From Mytilisepta virgata (Eukaryota > Mollusca > Bivalvia > Mytilida > Mytilidae), in assembly GCA_028015205.1 (NCBI GenBank), contig CM051513.1, positions 42,908,841 to 42,972,840 of the forward strand: a DNA stretch of 64,000 nt, in the 5' to 3' direction. A program made the position numbers and the translations under genes. Below the pieces are notes generated by a model that saw only the letters and a program-made list of their open reading frames with translations, ran no database searches and was not told where the DNA came from. Positions 9,426 through 52,700 of this stretch are shown here, one piece after another; the first letter of the stretch is position 1; each line of letters opens with the position of its first letter.

Positions 9426-9431
9426 GTAAAA
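9426..9431 (+). other. Target-site duplication GTAAAA, left
   Basis: GTAAAA directly precedes the first base of the left inverted repeat (TATGGAATGCC). The identical hexamer directly follows the right repeat at 26,326-26,331. Confidence 0.85.
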
Positions 9432-10057
9432 TATGGAATGCCATAACTGTCTTATAGTGTAAATATTGAATGTGTTTTGTAGCTTTGTCTTTACGTCCTG
9501 TCATTTCTTCTTTATGTTGTGTGCAAATTCCTTTATGTCCTGACACTAAGTTTCTTTGTTATGTCAACTTAGCTACTTGTGTTGTTAAACAGTTATATGT
9601 TAAGTCATTGCCTCTCTTTGTTATGTGCCATATGCATTACGTTATGTAGTTATCACTGTACATTCTATGGATACCTTCAAACTTTATTGTCTTAAATCTT
9701 AACGTTCTGTCAATTTTTCTCGTTTTCTTGTCTATTTATTCTTACATTATGTCAGTTTATACTTGTGCCCTGTTGGAAATTTGTTTGTTATGTCGAATTT
9801 CCCAAACTTTTTGTTTAATTACTTTTATGTTCTTTCAAAAACTTATTTTGTTATATTTTAATAACTGTTTGTTATGTGTATGCGTATGTATCTCTTGTGA
9901 AAAATGCTATATGTCTTTGTATAACTTATATTTGTTATGCCAATTATTTGGTACTTTTAGTAAACATCCAAAACGTTATGTCAACTCGTCACTTCGTTAT
10001 GTGCAAACACCTATTACGTTATGATAAACGCCTTTGTGACGCAGATAAAAAAAAACG
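9432..10057 (+). repeat. Left terminal inverted repeat (about 626 bp)
   Basis: Near-identical by eye to the reverse complement of 25,701-26,325. Both start TATGGAAYGCCATAACTGTC and end at GATAAACGCCTNTGTGA, CAGAT and an A-run with ACG. Within it, GTTATG occurs nine times by my count, all reading inward, at irregular 20-90 bp spacing. The HECT start codon is 38 bases past the inner end, so the repeat probably carries that gene's promoter. ORFs inside the repeat mirror each other between the two ends and are not credible genes. Confidence 0.88.
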
Positions 10058-10094
10058 TAATCGTGATACAGATCTAGTAAAATTCAGAAAAAAA

Positions 10095-13000
10095 ATGGCG
10101 TTTAATCAAGACCTAACCGTGTTGCTCAATTGCTTCAAAATATGGGCTTTGGCGCCTTAGCTCCAAATTTTATAGAGCAAAAAATAGAAAATGTCCAAAT
10201 GTTAGATTCTCTTACTGACATACATCTGAATTCGCTGGGGTTAACAACGATAGGAGATCGGGCGACATTCAGACACAACGCAAGAAAAGACATTGCTGAG
10301 TCAACAGCCTCAACAAATACCCATGATAGAGGTAATCAATGCAATATTTTTCATGTGCATATTCATTGAACTGTGGCTTAAATTATATTGTCTGAAAATG
10401 TAGCTATGTGAATATTGACAAAAATTGGTGACCCCTATTTTTCAACTTTGTGTTATCATAATTTTAGAATATTTTCGTTTTAGTTATTTTAGAGATAAAA
10501 CGGTACCAGGGGTTACGCGTAGTACCTCAGCCCTTTTTAAAATATGCTGAGTGAGTTAGCCAATATCACTTATAATAAACATATATTCCTAACATCTTTA
10601 TGTTTATATCTTCCTCAGGTAAGACATTTATCTTTATATTTTTGTAAGAAGATCACAAAAGTATTTAGTTTATTTACTGATGTTTCACAGAAGTAACGGA
10701 AAATAATCATTATTGTTTTATTTTGAGTTCAAAGTTAATTTTCAATAGTTTCCCCAAATGAACCTCGGTTGATTAACAATAATCATCTTTTTGATATTAA
10801 TGAAAAGTTTAATTATTAAGATTTAAAACTATTTGGTTTTGTGGCATATTATATATTTTCTTTTATGCAATATTTATTTTTGTTTTATGCATGCTTCTGC
10901 TTAATTGTATTGTGTGTTATAGTAGTGAAGGCCTGCCACGTGGCCTGTGTGTAAACAAAGAGAAGGGCGTTGTCCTTGATTAAAATGATTTCATTTATTA
11001 TATCAATTTGACGTTTTGAAAATTTTTGTAATCGTTCATTTATTCTTTGTTCAGTATAATTAAAAGCATGTTTTATCACCACCTTAATGACCCTCGGTTC
11101 GTGATAAAACGCAAGCTATAAATAGACCTTTGTTTGATTTTCAATTACCGTAAATGTTCTAATAAACAGTCTGGTTTTGAAATGGTTAATTCTATAGAAC
11201 GTTTAAAGGCAATATTTTGGTGAAGTAATTAAGTATTACGATATTTTAATCAGTTACCGTTTTGATACAAATACAAATATTTTATTAGCACAAACTCATC
11301 AACAATAAATGGTTAAGGCTCATGGCGTATTAATTATATAATAGATTATACATAATAAGTGTTGTAAACAATGACTATATTAATATGTAATATTGACTAT
11401 GAATTAAAGACAAATTGACAGTTCTATAGAGTTTGCTCAGCTTTACGCAGGTTCAAACTGTCTGAAATGAAAGAGGAAGTCAATCTTAGAATTGTATATG
11501 AATTGTTATTTAATAAAAAGTTTATATTATTTTAATTTTTTTCAAATTTTGTAGGATCATCGATTATATTTGAAACTTTTTGGTAAAATATGGCCCTTTT
11601 AGTTGAGTATTTTTCACAATGTAAAAGAAAATGTTTTTCATTTTCAATTTATCAGAATTACATACAGAGCAGTATCTCTCATTTCTGTGAATATTTAGAT
11701 GTATCCCTCTTTCAATCATCAGTGTATGAGCACTTATACGGATCTTACATATTGCAGCTCTGTCACTTCTGTGTCTTAAAATATCAACATAGGGGGGTCT
11801 TCGACCCATTATGTAGACGCTCTTGAAAAAGTCTAACTTCTTAGATTCAAGTATGTTTGCATTTTGAACTTGCAAACATTGGTCATTAATTCTTTGTTTA
11901 ATGGAATTTAAATTACCTTTAACATAATTAAAGTTATTAATGATATACGACATTCCAAGTCCATTTAAAAGACTCTTTATCTTTATGACCCAAGGGTTTG
12001 AATCTACAGATTTAGTGAATATATCATATACCAAAGAATTTTCCGTAGAAACTATATGGTTCAGGAAATTGAATATTGAATACAATATTTTATTTTTCAA
12101 GGGAATTCTATTAAGTTCGGCTCGACATCCATCATTAGATGTCTTGCAATGAACCCCTAATATATCTTTGATAAATTTAACATGAAGTTTTTCAAAGGGG
12201 TCAGAATCTTTAAAATTTGAGTCCACCCTCCAAATTTCACCCACCATATGTAAGAATGGGAGAAACTAAACAATCAAACAATTTTTCAAGAAGTCTACAT
12301 GGGTTGTTGAGACCTATAGTTTTCTTTATCTTATAGTATGCCTTCCTGGCCTTTTCCATTAGAGTATTAACAGAAAGACAAAAATTGCCATTATACTTTA
12401 AAACAATACCTAAATAGCAATAATTTGTAACCGTTTCAAGATTTGCATTATCATAGGTAAAATGGTTTAAAAATGTCTTGCAATTAGAATTAAAAATCAT
12501 AATTTTTGATTTGTCAGTATTAACTTGAAGTTTCCATGATGAACAATATTCATGTAAAATATCAAGAGAATTTTGCAGACCCTCTTTGCTTTCAGATAGC
12601 AAAAACAATATCGTCTGCATATAAAAGAATTTTCAAAGAGGTATCCCCAATGGCAACTGGATCCGTATGTTTGTTATCGAGATTACCTATTAGTTCATTT
12701 ATAAAATAGTTAAAAAGAAGGGGGCTCAATACGTCGCCTTGTTTAACACCCCTTTCTAATAAGAATGGAGGGCTAAGCCCATTAGAGAATGTTATTCTAC
12801 ATACTGTATCAGTATACATTGAATGAATAACATTAAAAATTTTAAGGGGGATATTGTGTTTTATGAGTTTAGAAAATAAACCAAGTCGTCATACGGTATC
12901 AAATGCCTTTTTTTATTCAATATAGAACAGAGTAAAGTGTTAATTGAGTGAATGGGTAATGAAGTATCCTGCGTGATACTGTATTTTGTTATTTCAAAAT

Positions 13001-16000
13001 AATTAAGTTCTTTAATAGTAGTTTGCATGCATGTTATTTTGTAATTGTTTCTTTAGCCTTTTTTCAAAATATGCCGAGTTGGCAAATAACACTTATAATA
13101 AACATATATTCTTAACATCTTTATGTTTATATCTTCCCATGTCTGTACCACCAGACCCGGGTAACAAAAACACATCATAACTTCACTTCTCATGAACATT
13201 TTACTGGAGCAAAAACGAGATCCTCTCACATTCCATCTTTCCCATATATATATATATATGCTGTATATAAGCCATGTTTTTATTCTTTCACCATTTATTT
13301 ATAGAAAGTATTTATTTTTACAAAGATGCTGATTGGATGTTTGTTATAATCAAAGATAAGGTAGTAGCCGTATGATTTTCATGGGGGGGGGGGGGGTGTA
13401 AGAAATACGGTTAATACTAGTAACAGTGCTAGCTGGGGGCAAAACAATTTATTTTTTTTGTAACAAGTAGTAAGCAAATTTTTTTCCCACAAATCCATAG
13501 CCTCCTTCCCCCGAAATTCAAATGGTTGCTGTCTAAGATAATCACGAATCACGAGAACACTGCAATCACAGTTCATGGAAAAAATTTAGTTATTTCACGT
13601 TTCACAGGAATGGCCAATCACGCCATAACTAAAAAGAGCCCCCCCCCCCCCCCTCAGATGACGATAACATTTTCAGAGAACACCTTGTTTATCAAAAAAA
13701 TTCCTAAGCCAACTGCCATCCCCACCTTGATTAATACACAGTATATTCTCACGGCCGGGTAACGGTTTATCGAGCTCAGGTCCGTTGAATGGCGGACAAG
13801 TCAAGGGCTGGTCCGTCGAATGAGTCGGACGGGCGTCAGTCGAGATTAAAACAATGTTATTTGTGTTACAAAGCTGAATATTCTTATCGATATAATTATT
13901 AAGATTCTGAAAAAAAGAAAAGTGTCAAACAAAATCATTATTATGCATGAAGATATTAACCCGCAAATTTCACCAGCAGACTGTTCGTCGAAGCCCGTAC
14001 GACCGGTTGTGAGTGAGGCTTAAGATCGGCTGCCCAGTTAAATCAAATGTACTTTCTGTTAATATCTGCTCTTAAATGAATTTGTCATAATAATGCCTTT
14101 TTTTCAGTTACACAACTATTCCGTCCTGGAAGGAGTGGATCTGGAGCAGGAAGAAACAGAAAAAAACTACAAATTAGAACCTGGACAGGTCAATTTTTTT
14201 GTTTGTCTGACAAAAATGCAACTAGAACACCATCTTCATCCGAAAAAATATCACTACAAGGTGCTGGACTTGGTCTCAAGAAAATTCAATTTAGACTCGA
14301 CGACGACGAGGAAGAAGTATATAGGGTTCTGTCACAGGAAAAGGGATTTCCCAGCTTCAAAACATCGGTGGTTTTGAACTGCTCCACTGCACTAACAACT
14401 GCAGAGAACTACAAAGCCTAAAATGTAAATGGAGTGTCGAGTCACTTCAAAAGCTTATTGGCAGCCAAGCCAAAATTTATATTCGCCCAATTCAAAATAA
14501 TATTAGAATTAGTCCAATATCAGAGCCAGTTGTAACATCACTACATGGAGAATGTGAAAACTGTAACAGGCAATATCCATTAAATGAATTGAGAGAGCAT
14601 ATCCTTGAATGTGAACAAAATGGTGCACAGGAAGAGACTGACAAAACTCGACGCTGGAGTATGAACAGGGGAAATCAACATCACCTTCCCTAGACCTAGA
14701 CAATGTTGTTGACTTAGGCACAGGTAGCTTTATAGCTTGTTTTTGTTGTACTATATAGGATATTTTGTCATAAACATGCTTCATATGTTTTTATTTGGAT
14801 CTCCAAACTTTTGAAATCGCGTATGAAAAAGAAAGGATAAAGGGTGTGTGCGACTGAGAAAACTGCCCAGTAGAACATAGAAAACATCATCAATTAGGTG
14901 CTGCCGTGTCCTTTCAACAGTGAGCAACAATCCATACTACATAACAAGGACTAAAACACCCCAAACAAATGTTAAACATTAAATTAAAGTAACCACAAAT
15001 CCCCAAAAATGTATTTCCAAATGAAAAACATAAGAGAGATAACAAAGAATTTACATTATACTAAGATAACCTAGAAATACAAGGTATTGGCTTCGAACAG
15101 GCGCTTCAATAATGCGACTGGGTTTAACATGTTTTGGAGTAAACAACCCATTATTCAATCCTTGGTCAGTAAAATAACTTACATTTTTTTCAAACAAATA
15201 GTCGAACAACACTAATCACCCCAATGTGTACTTAGTCAAGATACGTATCGTTTGCACTAAAATTGACACATTTTTTACTTGTATTGATATTACTAGATAA
15301 TCCATCAGATGAAACCATCGAAGAATCTGTAGACGCTATTGTTAAATTCTGTAAAGAAAGCAATATAACAGACCCAATAAACATCCTCAGAATATGCCAG
15401 TCAAAAATTGTTAAGGGTAGGAAACTCGACATTGTCGAGGAATCTGAGGTGCTTACTGGTGGAACCAATTATATTATGGTAAATAGGGAGGACGTACTCA
15501 ATTCTGCTATTGATGAAATCAAAGACATAGACAACCTACGTCTATGTCTAGAAGTTCAGTTTGATGGTGAGGTAAGGATAATTGATCTGTGCTGTATGAC
15601 GCAAAAATAGGTCTCCGCCAAATCTAGTTTTATTTTGTTTTATCTATTCATTGCAGAAAACAGAAATTACACATGCATATACAAGATAATACTAAGAGTA
15701 TAAGTTCATAGAGGTCTGTAGATTTTAGTATGATAACTGACGTCGTGCATTCGTCATCCAGTATAAGTCTTCGGATAGGCCCCGTGTGTCTTTGCACATA
15801 TAAGATCATCCCGCATTAACTTTACATAAAATTAACATATTTAAAAAAGAATGAAAACACATGGGCTAAATTTACAAAATTATTCATAATTTTAAGCATA
15901 GATTATTCCTGATAGAACAACATACATTTGATAATGCTTTACCCTAAATATTCACCCAAGCTACCTTAAACAGAAATTTGTTTTTAACTTAATCTGTTGT

Positions 16001-19000
16001 ATGTCATCCTCCAACGTCAGAATTTGATTCCACCTTTCGTTCCCTCAAAACCTTAACAGCACTTTCAGAAATAAGATGAAAAAGGCGTGTCTTTTACAGG
16101 AAGTCTATTTTAATTATATATCAGACAACGATCTAAACACCCCTTGATCCCCTCAATCTGATCTAATGTAAACACATGTTTTAGAATCAACTGTATTTCT
16201 CTTATGGTGGCAGCTTTTTATCTGTTTCTCAAATGAATTCATATTCTGATATCACATACCTTGGAGAGTGATATTACTTAATGATGGCAGAAATTCACTA
16301 CATGGATTTGTCTAAAGAGGAGTGATATACGAATCAAGAGTGATTTGATTGGTCGAGCTGAAAGCTTGCCTGAAAACCGATGATGTGATAAGCAGAAGAT
16401 CATTACTTTTTCGTGCATCGCGGACGCCATACAACGCACAAATAAATATTCCCCGGTAAATCATAAGAGAAATCAGTTTCGTATCTCTTGATAATTGAAT
16501 ATCGCAAGATATCAACTCTCGTTATTTGATTTCAAAACCAAACAAACTCGTCAAAGGCTCGTTTGTTCACTGTCGTGTGTACGTAATAAGGAATGGTCTT
16601 TTTTCAGAGGAGGTATCGAGCACACCCGTCTAAAATGCCTTTAATTATGGATCCATGTGTCAGTTGTGTTTTTTTTCGTTTCCAAAATGATCAAGTGTTT
16701 AAGATCTGTTTTAAAATATGGTCGAATCCCAATTATATTGCCAAAAACTGGAGTGAAAAGTTTGTTTACGTCAAGGAATGGTCAAGATGTTTTTTTTTCT
16801 TGCAGACCATTCCTTGGCGTAAACAAAACTTTTCACAGCAGTTTCTGGTAATATTATTGGGTTTACTATTTAAGGTAAAAACATTTCCCAAACACTTGAT
16901 CATTCTGGAGTGTGTTGGAAATATTTAAAAGCAAATACCACATATGACTCAATTGATCAATGCATTTCTAGAATACGGGTATCTACTTCGATTTTTTCAA
17001 CAACAGTTGCCTCGAATTTTAGGGGTACGAGCGGCAAATCTTAATAATAATTCGGATAACGGCCTGAATGTATGACAGAACATAGATATATGATTTCTAG
17101 AATATAATATCATTGTTGAATATGCAATTTCCGTACTGGAATTGCCTCCCCCCCCCAACCCCACACACACACTTTTTTTACCTGCACTCGTTCCGCCATC
17201 TTGAAAAGACAATTCCTTGTCGGGTACACGACAGTGATGTTATATTTTGAAATTAAATAACTCTAGTTGATATTTTGATATATTCAATTTTCACTCGTTA
17301 TGAAACATGTACATATGTACCATTGTTTTCACCAGTATTGAATAATTTTCCATGAGCTGTCATATATTTTTCAAGTTTAACAGTTGAATTATTTAAATAG
17401 CGTCTAAAATTATGTACAGTACTATAATTTTTCAAAAAACTAAGCATGTTGCGAAACAGCTCTTGCGACAATAGATAACAAGAAAAATAAATAGAAATGG
17501 TGAGCTGTAAAACGACTAAAATGTATGAAATATACAAGTCGAATAAAACCAAATATAAAATCGTAATTTTACATTTCTTTACATTTGTAGACTGCTGCGG
17601 ACTTTGGAGGACCACGGAAAGAGTTTTTCGGGATAATACTCCGAGAAATGAAGGAACAATATTTCGATAATATCAAAGAATGGTCTCCAGATTACGTCAT
17701 TTTGGGGAAAATAATGGGTTTGTAAAAATGATATGCATTAATTAACACAATATCATACTAATAATTAAAAACTGATGATTTTTATTTGTAAAACTTAAAA
17801 AAAAAATTCAAATGGCTAAAGTAATCATGCTTTATTTTCATTATATTTTGTGCGAAACGTATGTTAGTGTTAATTTCAATATTTGAGATGCAACAATACT
17901 TAGGACATATTAGGTAGGACAATCCTAAGATGACTTCATTACGGGGTATAAGACATATATCTAAGAAAAGTCTTAAGATGCTCCTAAGATATGTCCAAAA
18001 ATATATCTTAGGAGATATTTGACCAACGCATACATTGTAGAAAAAAATTGTATTATTAATCATATGCAACATGAAACAAGATCAATTTATGACCTGTATT
18101 TTCTTAATCTTTCGAGTTTGTGTTTTAGACCGGCAACCAACAGTTTTTTTCAAATAAATTTATTTCAGCTCTGAGTTTGCTGCAAAATGGAAAACTTCCT
18201 AAAGTCCTTTCCGTGGATCAAGTGGAGGAAGTGTTCAAAAGTCACAGCTTGAGACCTTGTGTAAAAGATCTTCGAAAAGGACTAGATTCCTTGGGTATTT
18301 ACCAGGTATACTACTAGTATATTTAAATATATGTTGACATATATACAAAATTAAAGTTGCTCCCTTATTTGAAAGTCTGAACTTATGAAATATTGTCATT
18401 ATACACATCGATAAAAAAAAACAACAGCGTGCATATATATGTATTCCCTGTCGTACATATACGCCGGCAGTTTCATGATAAAGCTAATTCTTTAGAAACC
18501 ATTCTGTCTTTATTGACCAACCGAAACATTACACTGCATAATCAAGGATAAAAACAAAATGATAACTATTACATTGGAAATTTGTCAATTTCGCCCTCCG
18601 TAGTTACAAGTACCTGTATTTACATGTGTACCCTTTAAAATAATGGGTCATGCAAACTGTAAACTGTTAGAAAGTTGAATTGTATACTGTATACCACAAA
18701 ATTGGGAGAGTATCGGAGGAAACAGAAATTGATAAAAGTTACCGGTTTTGGAGAACACGATTACCTAATTTTTACAAACGTCTATTGTTACAGATTGCGA
18801 AAAATATAGAAAATGTGAGAGACTCAGTTCGTTGCAGTGTACATTAGTTTACTGTCACAATGTTTACCATTTCTGTTGTCTAAAAGTTCAGAATTCCAAA
18901 TAGCATTATATTTTAATTTCAGATTCTTATAAATACGTAACTTAGGTACTTTTTTAGATTTCATAAAAGTTCTCAATTCCGTATCAAGATAGTTTAGCAA

Positions 19001-20208
19001 ATGGTCTACACAACTATACCAGCCCGCTTTGTATTGGGTGTAAGTTTGGAGCGCATACTGACATGTTAATACCGATTTTTACATTTTTGGCAAGTTTTAT
19101 GAAACATTTAATGAAATGCGCCGCCATACATTTATGGTGAATTGTGCTGGATTTTATAAATAGATTTTACAACTCTGTTAATTTCAATGTTTTTTTTCAA
19201 ACATTTGAATGAGTTGTTGATTAATAATATTATTCATTATGATGTACACATATATTGATATATATATAGTGTCACCAGAATATTCTGTTTCGTGTTTATT
19301 CATTTTACCATTGAACCAATGTTCATGCATGATTAGAAAGTTAAATAAAATCATCACATTTGTCATACAGCTTAGACTTCAAACGTCTTTCAATCTAGGT
19401 GTATTTTTACAGTAATTGTTTTAACCTCTACTTAAGTTGAAATTTTGGGCCGATTTCAATCCTTCCAGAACCTTGTCCTTCAACATACACGTATGACCAG
19501 TTTTAGGGGTTTATTTACTAATTCTGATTGAATCACCCTTTCTATTTCAGCTAACAACGAAGCTGCCTATGTTGGTACATTTGTTTACACCTGGCGCTTC
19601 GAGACATCTGACATCTATACTGCAACCTCAACTCAGTCCAGAAGGGTCTAATAGAAAAAAGCGAGAATCTGTGATGTATAATCTTTTTGTGAAATACGTA
19701 CGAGAAGCCGCTAGTGAGTTTAATATTCCCTATAACGTCGAGGTACCTAAATCGCCCAGTGCACACAAATGGAACATATTACTTTATTTTGAACGCAGAA
19801 TAAAATCTATGAACTTTTTTTGCAGACATTTCTAAACAGTATCCTTCTTTTAACTTTTTCTTATTTTTGTCACTGGAACATATTTTTCACCATGGTCGGT
19901 TTGGGTACCCTTGTCAGGAATAACCTGTAATTTTACAAATTTGAACTCGTATCTACTTGTCAAATAATAACAATTTTGTAAAAAGAAAATTTGAATAATG
20001 GTTCTGAACAAATGGTTCAGGGGTTTGAATACGGAATGAATCTAAAATGAGTAATACTCTGTCCCGAGAGGTTTTTACACCTTGAGGTAATTTTTGGTAT
20101 ATTCATGTTTCATCATTGTTTTTGAATTGATTATTTTTTGCTATTTTAAAGAGCTTGATATTTTGTGTGTTCGTTGTCCTACCTGTCTACCTTTTAAAAC
20201 GTTCAATA

Positions 20209-20252
<44 letters not shown>

Positions 20253-20641
20253 AAATATCTTTTGATTTGTCCAATATCATTCAATAACTTATATTTACAT
20301 TAATCATTTGGAACCTGGGTATAATCTGACAATTTGGCTCACAGTTTTATTCACTGTAATTTTTTTTTTGTTTATATTTAATAGGTGGACGCAGAGGTAC
20401 AATTGATCTGCGAAGTATTTTGAGATTTGCGACTGGTGCGGATGAAGAACCGGCCCTAGGTTTTGGTATCACCCCGTCAATTCATTTTGTTGAAGGAACC
20501 TCTTTCCTTCCCACTGCAAACACTTGTATCAACAGAATGAATTTGACTATTGCAGATTCTCATGACGTAACACTTGGGAAGGACTTCATTTTCAATTTGT
20601 TCGATTATGCCTTCACTAATACCTATTTTGGTATGAAGTAA
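10095..20641 (+). CDS. SAM-like/C2HC/HECT E3 ubiquitin ligase, transposon cargo (7 exons)
   Basis: Exons: 10095-10331, 14108-14723, 15297-15571, 17591-17717, 18169-18305, 19551-19713 and 20385-20641. All introns are GT-AG and the phases agree throughout. They give about 604 residues once three one-base losses are allowed for (near 10115, 14367 and 14643). Domains in order: a SAM-like helix bundle (residues about 8-60, ending SLGLTTIGDRATFR); a linker ending in QAKIYIRPIQ; a C-x2-C-x12-H-x3-C finger (about residue 230); and a HECT domain (about 340-604) with DFGGPRKEFF, LLQNGKLPK and the catalytic LPTANTC, Cys about 567. HECT enzymes form a thioester with ubiquitin and transfer it to substrates. 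The architecture recalls the G2E3-like proteins that are expanded in fish, corals and bivalves. The start ATG lies just inside the left inverted repeat and the stop is TAA. Intron 1 holds a LINE and intron 3 a foldback repeat. Substrate unknown. Confidence 0.85.
10530..10616. repeat. Direct repeat flanking the LINE, left copy
   Basis: A segment of about 85 bp containing ATAATAAACATATATTC and CATCTTTATGTTTATATCTTC recurs at 13,053-13,137 with few differences. The pair brackets the minus-strand reverse transcriptase fragment inside intron 1 of the HECT gene. It is too long for a usual LINE target duplication. Confidence 0.65.
11564..12900 (-). pseudogene. Non-LTR retrotransposon reverse transcriptase, truncated and frameshifted
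   Basis: Minus-strand frames in series encode the later part of a reverse transcriptase. First comes RGVKQGDVLSPLLFN with the palm motif YADDIV (about 12,600). Next is SWKLQVNTDKSKIMIFN with the thumb region and CLVSPILTYGG. A 227-codon frame follows, with EKLHVKFIKDILGV and a cysteine-bearing tail (CSVCNSD). The frame breaks just after YADDIVF, where the T-run looks one base too long, and again near 12,240. The N-terminal endonuclease and the front of the RT are missing, the usual 5' truncation of a LINE. I do not assign a clade. It sits in intron 1 of the HECT ligase gene in the opposite orientation, so it inserted after the host transposon formed. Confidence 0.85.
13053..13137. repeat. Direct repeat flanking the LINE, right copy
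   Basis: Partner of 10,530-10,616, sharing CACTTATAATAAACATATAT and the following CATCTTTATGTTTATATCTTCC. Just downstream, poly-G (about 13,383) and poly-C (about 13,639) runs of roughly 14-15 bases occur in otherwise unremarkable intron sequence. Confidence 0.65.
16490..17300. mobile_element. Foldback element (about 810 bp) in intron 3 of the HECT gene
   Basis: The sequence is a long imperfect palindrome centred near 16,796. The inner arms are strong: GTTTACGTCAAGGAATGGTC at 16,765 faces GACCATTCCTTGGCGTAAAC at 16,804. Further out, AAAATGATCAAGTGTTT pairs with AAACACTTGATCATTCT. The outermost AGATATCAACTCTCGTTATT pairs with a region near 17,250. There is no coding potential. It is a non-autonomous foldback or MITE-type insertion of unassigned superfamily. 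Confidence 0.75.
17870..18030. repeat. CCTAAGAT-rich foldback in intron 4
   Basis: Repeated inverted CTAAGAT/ATCTTAG motifs (for example CTCCTAAGATATGTCC against ATATCTTAGGAG) form a small nested hairpin region. It resembles the one at 6,660-6,830. Confidence 0.4.
18306..19550. other. Intron 5 of the HECT gene, nothing else recognised
   Basis: AT-rich intron with GT at 18,306 and a pyrimidine tract plus TTTCAG before 19,551. No nested element was identified. Confidence 0.6.
20209..20248. repeat. (TA)n microsatellite
   Basis: About 20 TA units in intron 6 of the HECT gene. Other (TA)n tracts occur at 6,412-6,436, 24,285-24,350 and 55,436-55,460. Confidence 0.9.
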
Positions 20642-20657
20642 GCAAGAAGTTTTGAAA

Positions 20658-20663
20658 AATAAA
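20658..20663 (+). promoter_or_regulatory. Candidate polyadenylation signal of the HECT gene
   Basis: AATAAA begins 17 bases after the TAA stop. It is a plausible but early signal, and the hexamer is common in such AT-rich sequence. Confidence 0.35.
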
Positions 20664-22003
20664 GACGAAACAGAAATTTTAATATCAAATATACAATTTA
20701 TAAAGGTCATTTGTTTGTTGATCATGTTGATTTAAGTGTATATATTTTAAGTTTCATACTTGAATTCATACTTCAATTTAAATTGCATTGTTAATATCAA
20801 CTTAACTTTCTTCATAACAATTGTGTACATGTATATGGAAATTACTATGACATCAGACATTAATGGGCTGCAGATTTCTATAATGTAACAGCAAAAAGGG
20901 CTTTTTCTTGTTGTTTTTGTAAATGTGTATTCAATGTTGATGACAGGAGCTCATGGCATATACAATGTACTTGGTTCTAACAGAGAAACCGATTTTTCAA
21001 ACGTGAGCTTCATGCACCGATCGAATACAATGTACACGATACTGATGGAATAGCCATCGAGATTTACTTACACAAGTAATAAATTCGTTGTGGTGGTAAG
21101 GTGTTATAGCCCATATAAAAACTTGAAGATTCAAAACCGACTTGAACTTTCATTATACAGAGAATAAATCTACATTTTTGTGAGCAAGCAATTCCAGTAT
21201 GGTCTTATATGATGAAGGCTATCAGCATTAAAAGTCAGATAGTGTGCCTACAATGTGTAACATCACCATCGGATCTCTCTACTTTTTACAATTATGAAGT
21301 AATAAAAACAACAAGTACCCATCTGCATTATTGTAAAAAACGTACTAGATGCCGTAAAATTTATCAACTTTATACACATTCATTTTCCTGTAAAAATCAT
21401 AATTTATTTCAAAATCAATGTTTTCAGCTTGCATAGGATAGAATTATATATATCCAAAGCGACAAATAAAAAATTGAAGGATAAAAGTGTTTTTTACGTG
21501 AAACTAGTCTCAGGTACCCCTGTCAAACTGTGGCGATTTAAAAGGAGAGAAAAAAGTATTGTATGTCATAACCAGCCTTAAATAAAGACACATTATTCGG
21601 AATCATTATCACAAAACTTTACCTGTCAGCAAAACGTAGAATATAACGAAAATATGAAGAATTTGACCTAACCTGAGTTTGCGTTTGTTTATCCACCGCT
21701 TCGCAAGTACCTATATCCGGCGGTGATGCTACACAGTGCCTAGATTAAATGTAAATAAAGGGAGAACACATTGAATTTAGGTCAAGTATAGCTGACTTGG
21801 TGGTAAATGACCCCCATGCTAAAAATATAGTATAGAATATCTTTTAATAAAAAAACATTTTGATTTGACCCCCAGGAACATTATGGCTAAGCTAAACTAT
21901 AATCAAAGATTGGTATGTCATTTTTGTTTTGTTGAAAAATACTCATTGTACAAAAAATAACTGAACATGTTCGAATCATTTTTTACTCATATAGCAGACA
22001 TAG
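20664..22003. other. Intergenic gap between the convergent genes
   Basis: About 1.3 kb between the 3' ends of the HECT gene and the transposase gene. It has only short ORFs and no repeat or third gene that I recognise. Confidence 0.5.
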
Positions 22004-24284
22004 TCAATGCAGTTCAGGTGTGGGAAATACATGAGTTTCTATTATTGATTTTGTTTTTTCGTATATATCGATTCCATAGTTAGATGATTCAGCACCATCA
22101 GGGCATTGTGATTCAAGATCTTGCTGGCAGGTATCTGTGAAAATAAAGTCAGGGGGAAACAACGACGGCCTTTGCTCTTCTTCTTGATCAACATCTTCCT
22201 CTACATTTGAAACATCTAAATCATCAACCTGGGGAACTGGATTATTAACATACCCAGCAGTAAATAAACAGATAGGTGATGCTTTCACAGTTCTTATTCT
22301 ATGTTGGTTCCAAGCAGACCGCCATATTTCTAAATTGTGGTTTATTCTGTTCATAAACACATAATGGAGTGCATACAGATGTAGATCGTTTATGGGGCCA
22401 AGGGAACCACAGTCTTCGAGATAATAAAAAAGATCATAAAAGAATGAAAGAACTCCATCAAATACATCCCGCCATAATCTCTCGATTCTTTGATTGTGGG
22501 TGCTTTTCCAGTTATCATACCCCCACTGGAAAGACCTCTTGTTTCTGCCATATATTCTGCAATTTTACAGTTTTCCATTCCTTGGTCCGATCGAACTTTT
22601 AGGGGTGTCCCATATTCATCAACACCGATTCGGAAACAATTATAAATAGTATCTGCTTTATTGTTATTGGTGCATTTTAGAAACACGACAAAACGGCTAA
22701 AGCCGTCAATGCCACCGGCTATAATAAAGTTCCACCTAATAAGCTTGTGGTTTGTATCTATATGCCATAGGTGATTGGGTGCCTGTACACTATAAACTCG
22801 TCTGGGAAGTTTGTTTTTTGTTCTTTCATGTATACCATCGCTATCAATTCTTTCGAGAGATTTTCTTAAACGAGATCGGGTAATCTGTTAAAAAAAATCA
22901 TATTTTACATTACCAAGATCATGAAGTTTAAATGAAAGACTCGGACACTCAGACCTTTACAGTTTGTTTGGCCGAAAAGATCATGTGACCGTTTGTCATC
23001 AGTTGGCGTGATCCACTTTCAGAACTGAAACTGTTTAATAATAACCGAACCTAGTCTTATATAAGACCATATTAGAATATTACAGTATATGAAACAACTT
23101 CAACAATTTGAACTACACTTAACAGCAATGCTCATAACCTGGACATGATAAAAATCTAACCAATATAATAGATTATTGACGGTTTCTGTCGAGGTCAAAC
23201 ATTATACTTTCGAAGAAATAACTAATATATAAAATAGAACATTTCTTTTTAGAAGAACTGACTTTTTATCACAGAAAAAGTATATTACAGTAAAAAGATT
23301 TCCCAAGGGCCTGCGAATATTGCCCTAAATATGTTAACCCTACGCAAATATTATACATTCTTTCTTCAAATAATACAAAAACCCGGGAATGTTTTTTTCC
23401 CCAAAATGTTAGTTATAATATTTAATACACTTTCAACATTGTTTATATATAGTGTCGGTATGCTACTACTTTGGTCTGCAGTACATGTCAATTTAAGAAT
23501 ACATAATTGCCACCAATGTAGAATTTAGATTTACATTGTACAATTTTGACAAAAGGAATGTCTTTGAGTGTAAACAATTTGTTATTTCAAATGATTAATC
23601 AGAGTCTTCTACGTCAGGAGCATGTAATCGCTAACCAGGATGAAAGCTTAAAACCAGACGGTAATGATTGACAGCTATGTTGGTTCGCTTACATGTCATA
23701 AAAGGGTCATCTAAAGACCATTGAATTGCTAAAAAAGATCAATAAGAATTGACTCCATGGTTTCAAACAAAGCTAAATTGAATTGACTTTCCAAGGGATC
23801 CTCACTTGTTAAACTATGTTCGACAATGATCGACATTTTGAAACGCGGATTGGAATACGGAAAAACAATTCTAAAAGAGGACCAACTAAAGGTAGTTGTT
23901 GCTCAGTTTATTTTTACACAGGTCAAACAAATCGTCCCCCAAATAAAATATGGGTTTTTCACCTAGATAATATTTATACGTAAATAAATTGTGTAGTTGT
24001 TAATATAATTCATACATAAACATTGGTCATATTTATTGTGTTATCTCGGTTAACCTTTTTTGTGGAAAATGCCACACTAACATACACTTCGCATGGTGTC
24101 CTTCCTTATACAAGAGGCTCAGGGGACTGAGCCTGTATCGCTCACTTGGCAGTCATAAACTTTTGATTTGATTTGACGGACTAGATTAATTTCTGGAAAT
24201 TTTGTAAATGCGGATCTTCCCTAGATGCTTCAAACCAAATATAAGTTCATTGGCCAAACAGTTTCAGAGGAGACGAAGTATAAC

Positions 24285-24352
<68 letters not shown>

Positions 24353-25592
24353 CTTCTGGCAGCCATTTTGTTTCACAGACTAGGTAGATTTATGCAAACT
24401 ATGTAAAGGACCTTCCATAGACGACCCATACCAAAAATCAGTTCATTTGGCTTTAAGGTTTCAAAGGAGAAGCAGTTTTAAATTTCAACCAATCAGAACA
24501 TGTAAGTCTCATGGCGGCCATTTTGTTTCATGTACTAGAATGATTTATGCACATTTTGTAACGGACCTTCCATAAATACTACAAAAAATCATTTCATTTG
24601 TCTTTACGGTTTCAGAGGAGAAGTTTTAAATTTCAACCAATCAAAACATGTAAATGCTCATGATGGACATTTTGTTTAACGTACTATTTATGCAAAAGTT
24701 GTAAAGGACCTTTCAAAGATGCTATATACCAAAAATCAGTTCATTTTGCGATACGGTTTCAGAGGAGAAGAAGTTTTAAATTTTGACCAATCAGAACATG
24801 TAAATGCTCATGGCGGCAATTTTGTTAAACGGATCGGGATGATTTATGCAAACTTTGTAAAGGACCTTCCATAGAAGCTTCAGGCCGAGTTTCAGTTCAA
24901 TAGGCCCAGGGGTTTCAGCTAGAGGAGAAGATGAAAATGTAAAAGTTTACGGACAGATGGACGGACGGACATACGACGGACGCCAAGTGACGACAAAAGT
25001 TCACATGGCCTTTGGCCACGTGAGCTAAAATGGATACCAACTCGTTTAAGCAGTTAGATTTACATGTTTTTCCTTGGACAAAGGGGCATGAAATGTACAA
25101 TTTAAATAATTCTATGTAGATATTGTCCATTACCTTTATTCCTCTGACAAACAATAAATTACGTAACATCTGTTCTCCACATTTAGGAAATTCTGCTACT
25201 AAATTTGACATGTTAATATCTAGCTCATCATCAATGTCTGTATATGTCCTTATACCAATACCGTATGTTCTCATTCTTCTGTATATGGTGCTCTCGGAGA
25301 TAGAAAGTAATGTTGACATATCTTTCACCGAAAACCCCGCTTCTATAAGGTGTTCAAGTATGTGTTCACTGACATTATATTCTTTTTTAAACGAACTTCC
25401 ACCTTCAACGATCTCTGCATTACCATGTTTTATGCATTCTACTCTCAATTTCATCATGTCAGCCGAATTTGTTAGTCCTAACGAATTCATTTCATATTTG
25501 GATAATGTGCCAACTATTCCAGGGTATATTTTCTGTTCTTTAAATTTCGAAATAAACGTTTCCATTCCTAGTTTTGCTAAAATTTCCTCCAT
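22004..25592 (-). CDS. SAM-like/HTH/DDE integrase-type transposase (2 exons)
   Basis: Exon 1 runs 25592-25134 (153 codons), with donor AAG|GTAATG. Exon 2 runs 22884-22004, with acceptor TTAACAG and stop TGA. This gives about 446 residues once one missing base is allowed for in an A-run at 22,504-22,507. Domains: SAM-like residues 1-60 (EQKI, NSLGLT); a helix-turn-helix at about 87-108 (SISESTIYRRM); and an integrase core with D196 in LWHIDTNH, D253 in VRSDQG and E288 in NQRIERLWRD, followed by an acidic tail. The last D and E are 35 residues apart, normal for retroviral-type DDE folds. It should cut and join the ends of the surrounding transposon. The family resembles the rve/'integrase core' proteins of fish, cnidarians and fungi. 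The start codon is 109 bases inside the right inverted repeat. The 2.2-kb intron holds a tandem-core element. Confidence 0.87.
24105..25032 (+). mobile_element. Tandem-core (pearl/HINE-like) element in the transposase intron
   Basis: The 5' end is CAAGAGGCTC...GAGCCTGTATCGCTCACTTG, followed by a (TA)n tract. The core units are spaced about 143-156 bp (GGACCTTC at 24,408, 24,563, 24,706 and 24,862). The 3' end has GGACGGAC, GCCAAGTGACGACAAAAGTTC and a hairpin around TGGCCTTTGGCCA ending GTGAGCTAAAA. The 5' GCTCAC and 3' GTGAGC are subterminal inverted repeats. It inserted after the transposase gene arose. Confidence 0.75.
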
Positions 25593-25700
25593 TTTGACAC
25601 TTTCTTTATCATTTATTTAGCGCTCGTTTTACCATGTTAATGTGATATTGAAACAAGCGCTTCAAAAACCTAGCCGTGGAACAACTATATAATTTGTATG

Positions 25701-26325
25701 CGTTTTGTTTTAATCTGTATCACACAGGCGTTTATCATAACGTAATAGGTGTTTGCACATAACGAAGTGACGAGTTGACATAACGTTTTGGATGTTTACT
25801 AAAAGTACCAAATAATTGGCATAACAAATATAAGTTATACAAAGACATATAGCATTTTTCACAAGAGATACATACGCATAAACATAACAAATAGTTATTA
25901 AAATATAACAAAATAAGTTTTTGAAAGAACAAAAAAGTAATTAAACTAAACGTTTGGGACATACGACATAACAAACCAATTTCCAACAGGGCACAAGTAT
26001 AAATTCACATAATGTAAAAATGACTAGACAAGAAAACGAGAAAAATTGACAGAACGTTAAGATTTAAGACCATAACGTTTGAAGGTATCCATAGAATGTA
26101 CAGTGAAACTACATAACGTAATGCATATGGCACATAACAAAGCGAGGCAATGACTTAACATATAACTGTTTAACAACACAAATAACTACGTTGACATAAC
26201 AAAGAAACTTAGTGTCAGGACATAAAGGAATTTGCACACAACATAAAGAAGAATGACAGGACGTAAAGACAGAGCTACAAAACACATTCAATATTTACAC
26301 TATAAGACAGTTATGGCGTTCCATA
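25701..26325 (-). repeat. Right terminal inverted repeat (about 625 bp)
   Basis: Reverse-complement partner of 9,432-10,057. CATAAC occurs ten times exactly by my count, with further one-base variants, all in one orientation and irregularly spaced. These are good candidates for repeated transposase-binding sites. The outer end reads CAGTTATGGCGTTCCATA, itself a short palindrome (TATGG/CCATA). Confidence 0.88.
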
Positions 26326-26331
26326 GTAAAA
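26326..26331 (+). other. Target-site duplication GTAAAA, right
   Basis: Identical to 9,426-9,431 and adjacent to the last base of the right inverted repeat. Confidence 0.85.
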
Positions 26332-26994: not shown

Positions 26995-28448
26995 AACTAG
27001 AGGTTCTCAAGAGCCTGTGTCGCTCACCTGTATCTAATGTGATTTTGGAAATTATGTAAAATTATATAATGATTGAGACCAAGATTGGTTTAATTTGACA
27101 CAGTATTTAAAATTAAAAACAGGTCATCTTAGTGTAGTCTTACAATAGCTATTGAAGACATCTTATCATTATTATTTTTGAATATGTGGTCAAGTTGTGA
27201 CCATTCAGAATTTTTTTTACAATTTTCTGATAGACTTCTAAACATCTTGGATGATGGATCGGCTACAAAGTAACAACACTTGGTCAGCACCTCATAAGGA
27301 ACATTCATGCTATGTTTTGTTACATTCCATTCAGTGGTTCTCTAAAAGAAGTCATTTGTATACATTTCCCGTAGGGTCTTAGTCCCCCGCTGGCGGCCAT
27401 CTTGGATGATGGATCGGCTACAAAGTAACAATGCTTGGTCAGCACCTCATAAGGAACATTCATGCCAGATTTAGTTTCATTCCATTAAGTGGTTCTCTAA
27501 AAGAAGTCATTTGTATGCATTTCCCATAGGGTCCTATGTTAAACTAAGTTCCCCGCTGGCGGCCATCTTGGATGATGGATCAGCTACAAAGTAACAACAC
27601 TTGGTCAGCACTTCATAAAGAATATTCATGCCATGTTTGGTTTCATTCCATTAAGTGGGTCACTAAAAGAAGTCATTTGTATGCATTTCCCATAGGGTCC
27701 AATGTTAAACTAAGTTCCCCGCTGGCGGCCATCTTGGATGATGGATCGGCTACAAAGTAACAACACTTGGTCAGCACCTCATAAGGAACATTCATGCCAG
27801 ATTTAGTTTCATTCCATTCAGTGGTTCTCTAAAAGAAGTCATTTGTATGCATTTCCCATAGGGTCCTATGTTAAACTAAGTTCCCCGCTGGCGGCCATCT
27901 TGGATGATGGATCGGCTACAAAGTAACAACACTTGGTCAGCACCTCATAAGGAACATTCATGCCAGATTTAGTTTCATTCCATTCAGTGGTTCTCTTAAA
28001 GAAGTCATTTGTATGAATTTCCCATAGGGTCCAATGTTAAACTAAGTTCCCCGCTGGCGGCCATCTTGGATGATGGATCGGCTACAAAGTAACAACACTT
28101 GGTCAGCACCTTATAAGGAACATTCATGCCAGATTTAGTTTCACTCCATTAAGTGGTTCTCTAAAAGAAGTCATTTGTATGCATTTCCCATAGGGTCCTA
28201 TGTTAAACTAAGTTCCCCGCTGGCGGCCATCTTGGATGATGGATCGGCTACAAAGTAACAACACTTGGTCAGCACCTCATAAGGAACATTCATGCCATGT
28301 TTGGTTTCATTCCATTCAGTGGTTCTCTAGAAGAAGTTCAAAATGTAAAATGTTAACGACGACGCCGGACGACGCCGGACGACGACGGACGACGGACGCC
28401 AAGTGATGAGAAAAGCTCACTTGACCCTTTGGGTCAGGTGAGCTAAAA
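26995..28448 (+). mobile_element. Tandem-core (pearl/HINE-like) element, complete, with 166-bp units
   Basis: The 5' end AGAGGTTCTCAAGAGCCTGT is followed by TCGCTCACCTG. Core units are anchored by GGATGATGGATC at 27,249, 27,404, 27,570, 27,736, 27,902, 28,068 and 28,234. The last five intervals are exactly 166 bp. Each unit includes TTTCCCATAGGGTCCWATGT and CGCTGGCGGCCATCTTGG, also present in the 560-1,645 array. The 3' end has a (GACGAC)n stretch, GGACGCCAAGTGATGAGAAA and a hairpin with arms GCTCACTTGACC and GGTCAGGTGAGC. There is no coding capacity. Mobilisation by a Helentron is an inference from structure. Confidence 0.8.
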
Positions 28449-47658: not shown

Positions 47659-47916
47659 TTATATTTTCAGGAGCATACTTATTTTGTTCTTTGAAAGACT
47701 GCTTATTTTACTGATTGTTATATTTTGAATGTTGGCCTTCATTTCACAATTTGTAAGAAGGTATGCCTCTATTTCATCTGGTGTTGTTAGATTTTTTGTT
47801 CCAGGAGAGGCTTTCAGAACTTTTTCACTTTGTGTAAGTCTTTTGGTTGTGTTGTTAACTTCAACCACCAATTCACACTTCTTTGTGATTTTTAATTTTT
47901 CAGTTTTTTGCGTCAT
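47659..47916 (-). pseudogene. Truncated copy 1 of the RPA-like final exon
   Basis: An 85-codon frame starting at MTQKTEKLKITKKCELVVEV is nearly identical to the C-terminus of the RPA-like protein. The OB-fold part is missing, cut at the duplication junction near 48,023. The end differs slightly from the full copy (ISMLLKI instead of a stop after SKNK). Confidence 0.75.
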
Positions 47917-48681
47917 CCCACATTTTGTGCATTTAAATATTGGGAGCTCTTTGTTATTTTCTCCAATATATTTTGTGCAGATTGCACAACAAGCAAATGA
48001 GATGCATTTGACGGATACAATACTGTTCCATCAATGCATAGATGGTGGTCATGGAAGGTACGTACTTATAAATAGGGAAAAAACCCAGAGAAGTGAATTC
48101 AGATTTTCAAAGTTTTAATCCCAATATTAATCTTTCAAATATCAATAATTTAAAAGTGATTTCTTGGGTTTTATGTATGTTTTAATGGAACAAGTGTGGA
48201 ACCAAATAGGTGTGTCGGTGAGAAATTGTTAAAAAGGTAAAATGCAAATGAAATTGAGGTTAAGGACACAACTCATTTGGCAGACTGATATGAAATACCC
48301 AGGACAAAACCACATACCAAATATTAATGGATCAAATCAGAGAAACTAAACATAACCAATAAAGCATGACAAAAAAACCCTTAATTTTACCGCTTCATAT
48401 ATAAATAAATGTAATCTAAAATCATTTTAACTACTTGAAATAACTCTTGAAATTTGCATTATTATGCAAATACTGTAAAATTGAAAATTTTCGTCACTAC
48501 AACTACTAGTAATTACTGCAAAAATCACAGTAACAAACAAGGAAAAAAAAATATCCTTCTTTTTATACAACAAAGATATCTTATTATCTTGCAAAGGTTT
48601 CATCAAACTAATAACGAAATCTAGATCATCATGCAAAACATGTATTACACTTAGCATGTCCATTGTAGGAAAAGTTCCTCT

Positions 48682-48939
48682 TTATATTTTCAGGAGCATA
48701 CTTATTTGGTTCTTTGAAAGACTGCGTATTTTACTGATTGTTATATTTTGAATGTTGGCCTTCATTTCACAATTTGTAAGAAGGTATGCCTCTATTTCAT
48801 CTGGTGTTGTTAGATTTTTTGTTCCAGGAGAGGCTTTCAGAACTTTTTCACTTTGTGTAAGTTTTTTGGTTGTGTTGTTAACTTCAACCACCAATTTACA
48901 CTTCTTTGTGATTTTTAATTTTTCAGTTTTTTGCGTCAT
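48682..48939 (-). pseudogene. Truncated copy 2 of the RPA-like final exon
   Basis: Same 85-codon frame as copy 1 with a few substitutions (KCKLVVEV, KKLTQSEKV). It is truncated at the junction near 49,047. Frames have stayed open in both partial copies, so the duplication is recent. Confidence 0.75.
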
Positions 48940-49733
48940 CCCACATTTTGTGCATTTAAATATTGGGAGCTCTTTGTTATATTCTCCAATATATTTTGTG
49001 CAGATTGCACAACAAGCAAATGAGATGCATTTGACGGATACAATACTGTTCCATCAATGCATTGATGGTGGTCATGGAAGGTACGTACTTATAAATAGGG
49101 AAAAAAACCCAGAGAAGTGAATTAAGATTTTCAAAGTTTTAATCCCAATATTAATCTTTCAAATATTTCATCCATACCAATAAATTAAAAGTGATTTCTT
49201 GGGTGTTATGTATGTTTTAATGGAACAAGTGTGGAACCAAATAGGTGTCTCGGTGAGAAATTGTTAAAAAGGTAAAATGCAAATGAAATTGAGGTTAAGG
49301 ACACAAGTCATTTGGTGACTGATATGAAATACCCAGGACAAAACCACATACCAAATATTAATGGATCAAATCAGAGAAACTAAACATAACCATTAAAGCA
49401 TGACAAAAAAACCTTAATTTTACCGCTTCATATATAAATAAATGTAATCTAAAATCATTTTAACTACTTGAAATAACTCTTGAAATTTGCATTATTATGC
49501 AAATACTGTAAAATTGAAAATTTTCGTCACTACAACTACTAGTAATTACTGCAAAAATCACAGTAACAAACAAGGAAAAAAAATATCCTTCTTTTTATAC
49601 AACAAAGATATCTTATTATCTTGCAAAGGTTTCATCAAACTAATAACGAAATCTAGATCATCATGCAAAACATGTATTACACTTAGCATGTCCATTGTCG
49701 GAAAAGTTCCTCTTTATATTTTCAGGAGCATAC

Positions 49734-52700
49734 TTATTTGTTCTTTGAAAGACTGGTTATTTTACTGATTGTTATATTTTGAATGTTGGCTTTCATTTCA
49801 CAATTTGTTAGAAGGTATGCTTCTATTTCATCTGGTGTTGTTAGGTTTTCAGTTCCAGGAGAGGCTTTCAGAACTTTTTCACTTAGTGTAAGTCTTTTGG
49901 TTGTGTTGTTTACCTCAACCACCAATTCACACTTCTTTGTGATTTTTAATTTTTCAGTTTTTTGCGTCATCCCACATTTTGTGCATTTATATATTGGTAG
50001 GTCTTTGTTGTATTCTCCAATATATTTTGTGCAGATTGCACAACAAGCAAATGAGATGCATTTGACAGATACAATACTCATTTTTTCTATTTCTTCTGTT
50101 TTTGGATTCTCAAAGGGGTTTTCTACTTCTATGATCTTCTCAAGATCATTTATCTTCTTTATGGTTGTGTCTACAGTTGTTGATAGAGATTTAGTTCCTT
50201 TGTAAATACGTACAGAGACATTTGTCATTTTGTAAGAATTGTTGACTGTGATGTCATCATTATGCTTCCCCCAAACTGCTAACTTCATATATGCTGTATC
50301 ATCAGCTGCCATAATTTCCTTAAGTTTCATCACTCCATTTTTTGTGTTTTGGTCTCTTTCTTCTTCTTGAGAAATAATCTTTACTTTGATGTTAGACTGC
50401 AACAGAAAAAAAACATGAATTATTTAATGATACACAAGGAGTTTTAGCATGGGTTTTCCACTTTTGTGTAAAATATTTGCACTTGAAAAAATTTAATAAC
50501 AAGTGTGGAACCAAATAGGTGTGTCGAGCTTGCTCGATGGCAGATAGATTGCCGGGAAATTGTTGGACAAATGGCAAGGAAAATGAGGAAATATACTACA
50601 AGTGTGGACCCAAATAGGTGTCTTGCTTGTCAGCACATGGATTGCTGAGCAGTGATAAAAAAAGACATTGTGATCATTGATGTCTAACATGTAGCATCTC
50701 AGATATGAACATCAATGACCCAAAACAGTCAAGTGTAAAATATGGGTTAGAGTGACCCATGTATCATTTGCAGCAGCAATACTCTCCAAGACACATCCAC
50801 TGACCAAGGATGAATGATGTACCGCATGTACTATCTCAGATATGAATCTTAACGCAAACTTTAACCTGAGTCATTCAAGCATAAAATGTAGGTCAGAGTG
50901 ACCCAATTATCATCTGCATCAGCAACACTCTCCAAGATGCATCCACTGACCAAAGATGATTGATGTTCAACATGTAGTACCTCAGATACGAACCTTAACG
51001 TGGAAGGTTTTTTTTTTTCATTTTTGGGACAATATAGGCATATTTTTAATTGATACTGGGTCCTATAACAATCATTGATTTAACACTCTGTCAACTCTGT
51101 CTATAGAAGGCATCACAAACAAGGTAAAAAGAAAAAATTGAGTTGCAGGTTCTGTGGTGCCAGGTATACCCCCACTCGAACCATGTTACCCAACATTTTT
51201 TCGTTAACAGGAAGCTGACAAGAGCAACAAAAAATGCTAATGTCTCATAAATATAAAGTCAAACACCAAGTTTGAAATAAATTTGTCCAGCAAGAACTAA
51301 GAGAATTGCGACAAAATAAAAAAAGCTATTGTTCATAAAAGGGAAAAATGGCAAAGTGCCTCAGATATGAACCTTAACGTGAACTTAAACCTGAGGTGGG
51401 ACGAATGGACGAACACTCAGTCACTCGGATGGGCTAGATACTATATCACTGCCCCAAATTTGAAATAAATCTGTAAACCAGGAGCCAATAAAATAGCGAC
51501 GAAAATTTTCACTTTTGTACAATATAGGGAAAAATCCCAAAGTTTCGCCAAACAGGAAGTTAATATCCTAGAGCAACAAAAATTGCTTACGAGATATGCC
51601 CCATATATATAAAGTCAGACACCAAATTTGAAATAAATCTGTAAACCAGGAAATTTGTGACGAAAATTTTCACTATTGTCAAATATAGGAAAAAACAAAA
51701 AGTTCCGCCAAACAGGAAGTTTATATTGTAGAGCGACAAAAATTGCTTTAACATATGGCCCATAAATATAAAGTCAGATACCAATTTGAAATAAATCTGT
51801 AAACCAGGAGCCAAGAAAATTGCGACGAAAGTTTTCATTATTGGCAATATAGGGAAAAATGGCAAAGTCCCCCAAGCATGAAGTTAACATTGTGGAGAGA
51901 CATAAATCGCTTACGACGTATGCCCCATATTGCAAAAAAATTTGCAAATTAAGTGAAGATTTTTACCTTTCCATATTCATTCACATTATTTTGAATGTAT
52001 AGAAGACTTCTGTAGGGATCCTCAAGAATCTGGCAATTAAAATTCAATCTTCTTGCTGGTGTAGTAATTTTGGTGTGTTGATTTATTTTTATGTCAAATT
52101 TTCCACTGAAATACTTGGAAGGTGTTCTTGAGATATTTTCAAAGCGTAAAGCTGTCCTGAAATAAAAAAATAAATGTATAATTTTCTATTCTGGACTTGG
52201 AAAACTGAAGATGTTACTGAACTGCTGCACTAACTAATGATATAACCACATCATTATTAATCATAATTTGTTTGATTAAATTTGCTAAGATTCTGAAATT
52301 TCAACATCACATAAAAATAAGAAAAACGGGAACTACATAGCAGGATACGACAAAAAAAAAAGGTATGTTAGGGCAAGTGTTGATACAAAAGTTAGTGTGG
52401 ATTTCATAAATTGCTGGACCCAAAGTGATCCAAAGTGAGTGTTGAATAAGTAAGTTGCTGGACAGAGTTATTTGCTGGACTAGATTTTAAAATTACATGT
52501 AAAAAATCTGATGGGAAATTTTTTTTTTTCACATAAAAAGCAAATTTGCGATTTTTGCCCCTTTTGGCCCTTATATTTCCCTTAGGGGACAAGTAATAAA
52601 AAATCTGACTGATACAAGCTTTGTTAATTTTTCATAAGGAGTTAATAAAAAAAAAACTGCATCAAAATCGGACAAACAATAAAAATTTTTTTTTTTGAGA

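Follow-up and report, generated by a model that had tools for sequence, protein, structure and literature searches.

The locus and its two genes

We analysed a 64,000-nucleotide stretch of the genome of the bivalve Mytilisepta virgata (assembly GCA_028015205.1, contig CM051513.1, positions 42,908,841 to 42,972,840 of the forward strand), hereafter the window, to which all positions without a contig label refer. An initial annotation, made from the letters alone, had described a cut-and-paste transposon in it. The element spans positions 9432-26325 (16,894 bp) and carries, between long terminal inverted repeats (TIRs), a gene for a predicted HECT E3 ubiquitin ligase on the plus strand and a gene for a DDE transposase on the minus strand. 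The left TIR (9432..10057, plus strand, 626 bp) and the right TIR (25701..26325, minus strand, 625 bp) are identical at 599 of 624 aligned positions (96.0%), with three single-base indels. They start with TATGGAATGCC and finish with GGCGTTCCATA, giving TATGG..CCATA ends, and are abutted by GTAAAA, the 6-bp target site duplication (TSD; left, 9426..9431; right, 26326..26331), identified by direct reading and by comparison with the empty sites described below. The size of about 16.9 kb, the lengths of the TIRs, their TATGG terminus and the intact GTAAAA on both sides are all as the initial annotation had them. The left TIR holds nine GTTATG motifs in a single orientation and the right TIR ten in the same inward orientation, while in 1000 dinucleotide shuffles of the left TIR the motif occurred 0.5 times on average and never more than 5 times. 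These arrays look like protein-binding sites, and a protein may bind them. No further full TIR copy was found inside the window, where the search showed just two partial matches, both weak (50-63 bp, ~74%).

The genome in which other copies were sought comprises 1.03 Gb in 109 contigs and contains the window. Both genes are also present in two long sister copies, C2a (C2:36242221-36260808, 18,588 bp) and C13a (C13:92243795-92263699, 19,905 bp). Over long blocks these are ~95-98% identical to the window copy, and each is on a different large contig, has a TSD of its own and is flanked by unrelated sequence. Under the same exon model both frames are open in C2a, encoding a HECT protein of 622 aa and a transposase of 447 aa. 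In C13a the transposase is frameshifted and the HECT gene is out of frame, with its last exon damaged.

The HECT gene was modelled with seven exons on the plus strand. Exon 1 (10095..10331), which encodes a SAM domain, was placed by tblastn to HECT relatives, a GT donor and a frame that is open in two sisters; the window copy is frameshifted here by the loss of 1 bp. Exon 2 (14108..14723), defined by homologs and sister copies, encodes a middle domain and a C2HC-like zinc finger and has lost 1 bp and 40 bp. Exon 3 (15297..15571), delimited by GT/AG borders, phase and homologs, covers a linker and the start of the HECT domain. Homologs also placed exon 4 (17591..17717), with the GGPRKEFF motif of the HECT N-lobe, exon 5 (18169..18305) and, together with the sister copies, exon 6 (19551..19713), which has lost 15 bp; all these losses are relative to both sisters. 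Exon 7 (20385..20641) encodes the C-lobe with the catalytic Cys (PTANTCINRM), followed by the stop, and carries the match to PF00632. On the joined window protein this match has an E value of 1.6e-6 and 28.5 bits against a cut-off of 23.9, over part 213-281 of the 306 model positions. The order of domains is therefore SAM, middle domain, C2HC-like finger and HECT with its catalytic Cys, and the catalytic domain is conserved. The structural matches listed for the protein were taken up by HECT. Its relatives in bivalves, cnidarians, hemichordates and a crinoid bear the annotation uncharacterised or HECT-domain protein. Fold and catalytic Cys show that the predicted product belongs to the HECT E3 ubiquitin ligase family.

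The transposase gene has two exons on the minus strand. Exon 1 (25134..25592) encodes a SAM-like domain, recognised by profile comparison, and a helix-turn-helix (HTH) with weak matches; it has lost 3 bp relative to both sisters. Exon 2 (22004..22884) encodes the DDE catalytic core, in which the loss of 1 bp relative to both sisters causes a frameshift between the second D and the E. PF24764 matched the joined transposase with an E value of 2.5e-71 and the two separate open reading frames (ORFs) with 1.2e-38 and 8.9e-29, and the catalytic spacing measured in C2a is DD34E. The protein has a fold match to integrases and the domain order SAM-HTH-DDE, which bears out the integrase-type DDE transposase named earlier. 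A pattern search of C2a found no HHCC motif before the core, and none of 120 relatives listed had one. With frameshifts in both genes, the window element is, by its sequence, a now-defective copy of a two-gene IS3EU transposon, although these frameshifts may reflect assembly errors.

Related transposase sequences were also seen in other settings. Opposite-facing pairs of N-terminal fragments, 0.5-1.4 kb apart, occur at C3:34717559-34718948, C7:6899754-6902097, C14:109116688-109118963 and similar other loci, as if short non-autonomous elements held the SAM-HTH exon in both arms. The sole prokaryote-genome contigs that matched (LWTN01000118.1, LWTN01000139.1 and LWTN01000127.1, from a metagenome-assembled genome of a sponge symbiont) encode a similar transposase at 44-47% identity, which is probably host DNA contaminating the bin. 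Among viral contigs, each of two scans returned 12 pattern-matching stretches, none of which encodes a relative of either protein.

Other copies and empty sites

A genome search with the left TIR returned at least 45 matches. We inspected ten TIR loci, including the window; C7a was without one terminus and the other nine were two-ended, so that loci with both TIRs, which the initial annotation had proposed to look for, do exist. Perfect 6-bp TSDs, each different, flanked eight of the nine two-ended copies (GTAAAA, CATATG, CGAAAT, GGTTAG, TAAATG, TCTTCC, GTATTG and TATTCT), and the ninth, C14a, had only a 5-bp match, out of register by one. Together with the genome-wide matches, these distinct TSDs argue that the TIR/TSD pattern is not due to chance. 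No similarity between copies was detected among the 18 flanks of the nine copies (~500 bp each, E up to 1e-4). One of the inspected regions, C5:10524407-10538240, is a composite locus with several TIR copies within one pair of ends and the TSD TCTTCC.

Empty sites were searched for with the flanks of the window element joined and one TSD kept. At two related loci, C13:47958145-47958367 and C5:36776842-36777063, the sequence continues across the insertion point. Both contain a single copy of the duplicated hexamer with one substitution, show some indels nearby and are part of a dispersed repeat. As the two loci are nearly identical, they represent one repeat family and not two independent witnesses. 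The empty site that had been suggested as a test was thus found within the same genome, in the form of two never-occupied relatives. In addition, C13a was inserted in a tandem repeat whose adjoining unit constitutes its own empty site. These comparisons show that the element, as delimited here, entered its site as one piece and duplicated 6 bp of the target.

Among the three long copies, identity was 98.1-99.5% between left ends and 97.0-98.2% between right ends, compared with 95.2-96.5% between left and right ends. Since same-side ends are more alike, the divergence of left from right predates these insertions. TIR divergence was considered as an insertion clock and rejected, the two ends having diverged before the copies moved. 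The 4% difference between the TIRs is what an old inverted duplication might show, yet a segmental inversion duplicate, the refuting case named at the outset, can be practically dismissed: it is refuted by the empty sites and disagrees with the distinct TSDs, the dissimilar flanks and the age of the end divergence. Transposition itself is evident from these alignments. Cut-and-paste, the usual route for such elements, is a mode that we infer, because the empty sites are never-occupied relatives rather than excision sites and bacterial IS3 elements transpose by copy-out via a circle.

Both proteins begin with a SAM domain

The initial annotation had reported a second gene, unrelated to the transposase. 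The gene is present inside the TIRs, but the predicted ligase and the transposase are not unrelated, since they share an N-terminal SAM domain. Alignments of the HECT SAM and of the transposase SAM matched each other as profiles at 97.7% (E 1.3e-12). The HECT-SAM profile matched 113 of 120 transposases at their N-terminus and none of 600 shuffled N-termini. In the opposite direction, the transposase-SAM profile matched 17 of 56 HECT proteins, 22 of which had a SAM domain detectable with their own profile. PF00536 was found in 12 of 29 HECT relatives (best E 1.1e-7). The N-terminus of the transposase profile also matched the SAM domain of tankyrase with an E value of 0.0064; the tankyrase SAM polymerises. 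Three families were checked for the domain, and the C7/C28 and C9 families have it on both proteins, as the window family does. Altogether, these profile matches show that the SAM domains at the start of the two predicted proteins are homologous.

The two genes are paired and show constraint between copies

Genome-wide, 87 HECT matches were obtained, of which 58 rows were used and the other 29 were further exons of the same loci. Likewise, 52 catalytic-core rows were used out of 94 transposase matches, the remaining 42 being N-terminus only or further pieces of listed loci. A convergent transposase core lay within 30 kb at 23 of 33 HECT loci, against a chance expectation of 0.025 (200 random placements); one pair, the widest (27.5 kb, on C11), is doubtful. 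Grouped visually by position and identity, the pairs fall into about ten families, whose HECT pieces are ~39-51% and transposase cores ~39-65% identical to those of the window. A second family, with copies at C7:11628116-11640960 and on C28, has TATGG ends and the TSDs TGTTTT (at a T-rich site) and CATGTT. In all, a 6-bp TSD could be read at two of three other-family loci, the exception being the third family, C9. No transposase core was listed near five similar HECT loci (C65:97654-102433, C24:343796-348573, C6:30582588-30587359, C11:60759901-60764679 and C6:40273005-40277785), which may represent a different type of transposon, elements that have suffered deletions, or a gene of the host.

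The ratio of nonsynonymous to synonymous rates (dN/dS) of the HECT gene was 0.34 between C2a and the window (12 nonsynonymous and 10 synonymous changes, p 0.013) and 0.23 between C2a and C13a (15 and 18, p 0.0001). For the transposase it was 0.15 between C2a and C13a (6 and 10, p 0.0004) and 0.44 between C2a and the window (5 and 3, p 0.22). In both genes, as modelled, these comparisons show nonsynonymous change below synonymous change between copies. Divergence of introns and intergenic sequence was 1.44% between the window and C2a and 2.12% between the window and C13a, while HECT dS between the window and C2a was 2.5%; relative to the intron value, dN for this pair was ~0.6 in the HECT gene and ~0.3 in the transposase. 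The convergent pairing at 23 of 33 loci, the HECT dN/dS of 0.23-0.34 and the homology of its SAM domain with that of the transposase together argue that the HECT gene belongs to the element.

Superfamily and comparison with known systems

The assignment to IS3EU, first offered as a guess from the 6-bp TSD and TAY-type ends, is supported, as every published feature that we compared fits. IS3EU elements are described as having TA..TA termini, usually a 6-bp TSD and an integrase-type DDE transposase without HHCC (PMC10045372), all of which the element shares. The TATGG..CCATA termini of the window copy and its two long sisters, from which C5a and C5b deviate in one end, at base 4 or 5, also fit the form TAYGG..CCRTA given for fungal TET+ IS3EU elements (PMC12730594). 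A neighbouring superfamily (GingerRoot, IS481EU or Ginger1/2) seems a rather improbable home for the element, even though IS3EU, GingerRoot and IS481EU are poorly separated by phylogeny and GingerRoot, treated jointly with IS3EU, has 6-bp TSDs and mostly TA..TA ends and is so compatible with these features (PMC10045372). The published TSDs of ~4, 15 or 25 bp for IS481EU, 4 bp for Ginger1 and 4 or 5 bp for Ginger2 (PMC10045372) differ from the 6 bp seen here.

Compared with IS3EU as described, the ~625-bp TIRs with motif arrays, the SAM domain of the transposase and the HECT gene set the element apart, although Repbase entries may hold some of these. The accessory genes of fungal TET+ IS3EU elements encode a TET/JBP dioxygenase and an alpha-kinase, and neither HECT nor ubiquitin appears in the accessible portion of that description (PMC12730594). 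Ginger1 resembles the present element as a eukaryotic TIR element with an integrase-like DDE transposase. Ginger1 elements are associated with ubiquitin-like proteases, and to our knowledge none carries a HECT gene. Apart from its shorter TSD, Ginger1 stands outside the list of groups without HHCC in the part of the source consulted (PMC10045372). Helitrons with deubiquitinases (VTD, OTU) are likewise mobile elements encoding an enzyme of the ubiquitin system, but they strip ubiquitin and use RepHel, whereas here a ligase that would add ubiquitin accompanies a DDE transposase (PMC9741609). The retroelement Burro has ubiquitination-related domains, neither HECT nor IS3EU being named in the available text (PMC6431247), and in that of PMC8195603 HECT occurs only as an effector of immune proteins. 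A literature search found no publication joining IS3EU and HECT; Repbase entries lay outside its scope and may show the gene. IS3EU is already known, and a HECT ligase as its accessory gene appears, from this search, to be new.

Nested sequences and other features of the window

A 2.77-kb segment of HECT intron 1 (10399..13166) is missing from the short copies C8a and C2b, in which 10398 and 13167 are contiguous, and represents either a nested insertion or sequence that these short copies have lost. It contains a remnant of the reverse transcriptase of a long interspersed nuclear element (LINE) on the minus strand (11564..12632; RVT_1 below the curated cut-off, E 1.1e-4), also delimited by copy comparison. 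The ~1.6-kb stretch with this remnant is common to the window and C2a and absent from C13a; a LINE specific to the window copy was thus considered and rejected. A 62-bp direct repeat (94%) lies close to the ends of the segment, at 10553-10614 and 13076-13137. HECT intron 3 holds a degraded palindromic insertion-like sequence (16476..17306), and the transposase intron holds tandem units of ~150 bp (24344..24917) and a dispersed repeat (24811..25030) that recurs at 1419-1644 and partly at 28329-28448. Alongside these palindromic, tandem and dispersed repeats, AT arrays also contribute to the 16.9 kb. The second-family copy measures 12.8 kb, so the large size is not solely due to nested insertions of the window copy.

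Elsewhere in the window, two overlapping ORFs on the minus strand (57902-60507) encode a PIF1-like helicase and, with a match just short of the cut-off, an endonuclease/exonuclease-type domain, as in a Helitron/Helentron protein. Three units with spacings of 1.02 and 1.05 kb (47659-50423) each contain a similar ORF that had no Pfam match at E 0.001.

A possible role of the ligase in transposition

Little is understood about the accessory genes that DNA transposons of animals carry. The common N-terminal SAM domain suggests that the transposase and the ligase act together. The reading that we favour, tentatively and at somewhat less than even probability as a whole, is a ligase docked through its SAM domain at a transposition complex. 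The HTH of the transposase would bind the GTTATG arrays in the long TIRs, and its DDE core would cut and join the ends with a 6-bp stagger. Through the SAM domains the ligase could attach to the transposase or form a polymer with it, and such a contact would put ubiquitin-ligase activity at the ends of the element. Its most likely targets there would be either repressors of the host or chromatin proteins located on the element, or else the strand-transfer complex once it is spent, which ubiquitin would mark for removal and repair. The transposition complex of phage Mu is removed by the host unfoldase ClpX.

Several points weigh against this reading. Both the SAM contact and the target of the ligase are elements that we infer, and the window copy itself is broken. 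Pfam alone found the transposase SAM in 3 of 19 relatives (E up to 0.05, best E 0.0052), and in the window transposase with an E value of only 0.11. The 23 pairs, being copies of about ten families, are not independent. Furthermore, a transposase core was not listed near 10 of the 33 HECT loci and 29 of the 52 cores had no listed HECT partner, so that the ligase is not universal. The selection estimates depend on few substitutions, the transposase comparison between C2a and the window is not significant, and because introns diverge less than synonymous sites, the HECT constraint is milder with introns as the yardstick.

The ligase could instead be a stand-alone counter-defence factor that degrades host silencing or DNA-damage proteins, its SAM domain binding host SAM proteins or itself. 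We regard this as a real, if minority, prospect. SAM domains bind many partners, the HECT catalytic domain is conserved, and the deubiquitinases of Helitrons (PMC9741609) provide a precedent for ubiquitin-system enzymes in mobile elements. However, such a factor would leave aside that the SAM domains of ligase and transposase are homologous and present on both in the three families checked, for which mutual contact or a common assembly is the easiest explanation. A further reading, unlikely and largely refuted, takes the HECT gene for a passenger that one element picked up by chance from the host and that has no function for the transposon. The unpaired transposase cores, the mild constraint relative to introns and a middle domain with no known role would suit a passenger, but the same convergent arrangement recurs at the 23 loci across divergent families, HECT dN/dS between copies is below 1, and HECT relatives occur in cnidarians, hemichordates and a crinoid, transposase linkage there aside.

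Returning to a ligase docked at the transposition complex, the wider proposal is of an animal IS3EU lineage, with about ten families here, that encodes its own ligase, docks it by matched SAM domains and may use it to clear repressors or the spent complex. We hold this proposal as a possibility short of an expectation. What the comparisons establish for this genome is that a DDE transposase is repeatedly paired, in about ten families, with a predicted E3 ligase. Should the SAM link prove real, ligase and transposase would make a defined pair of proteins in which to see how the ubiquitin system of the host is used by a transposon. The findings also suggest that some of the genes annotated as HECT in bivalve genomes may belong to transposons.

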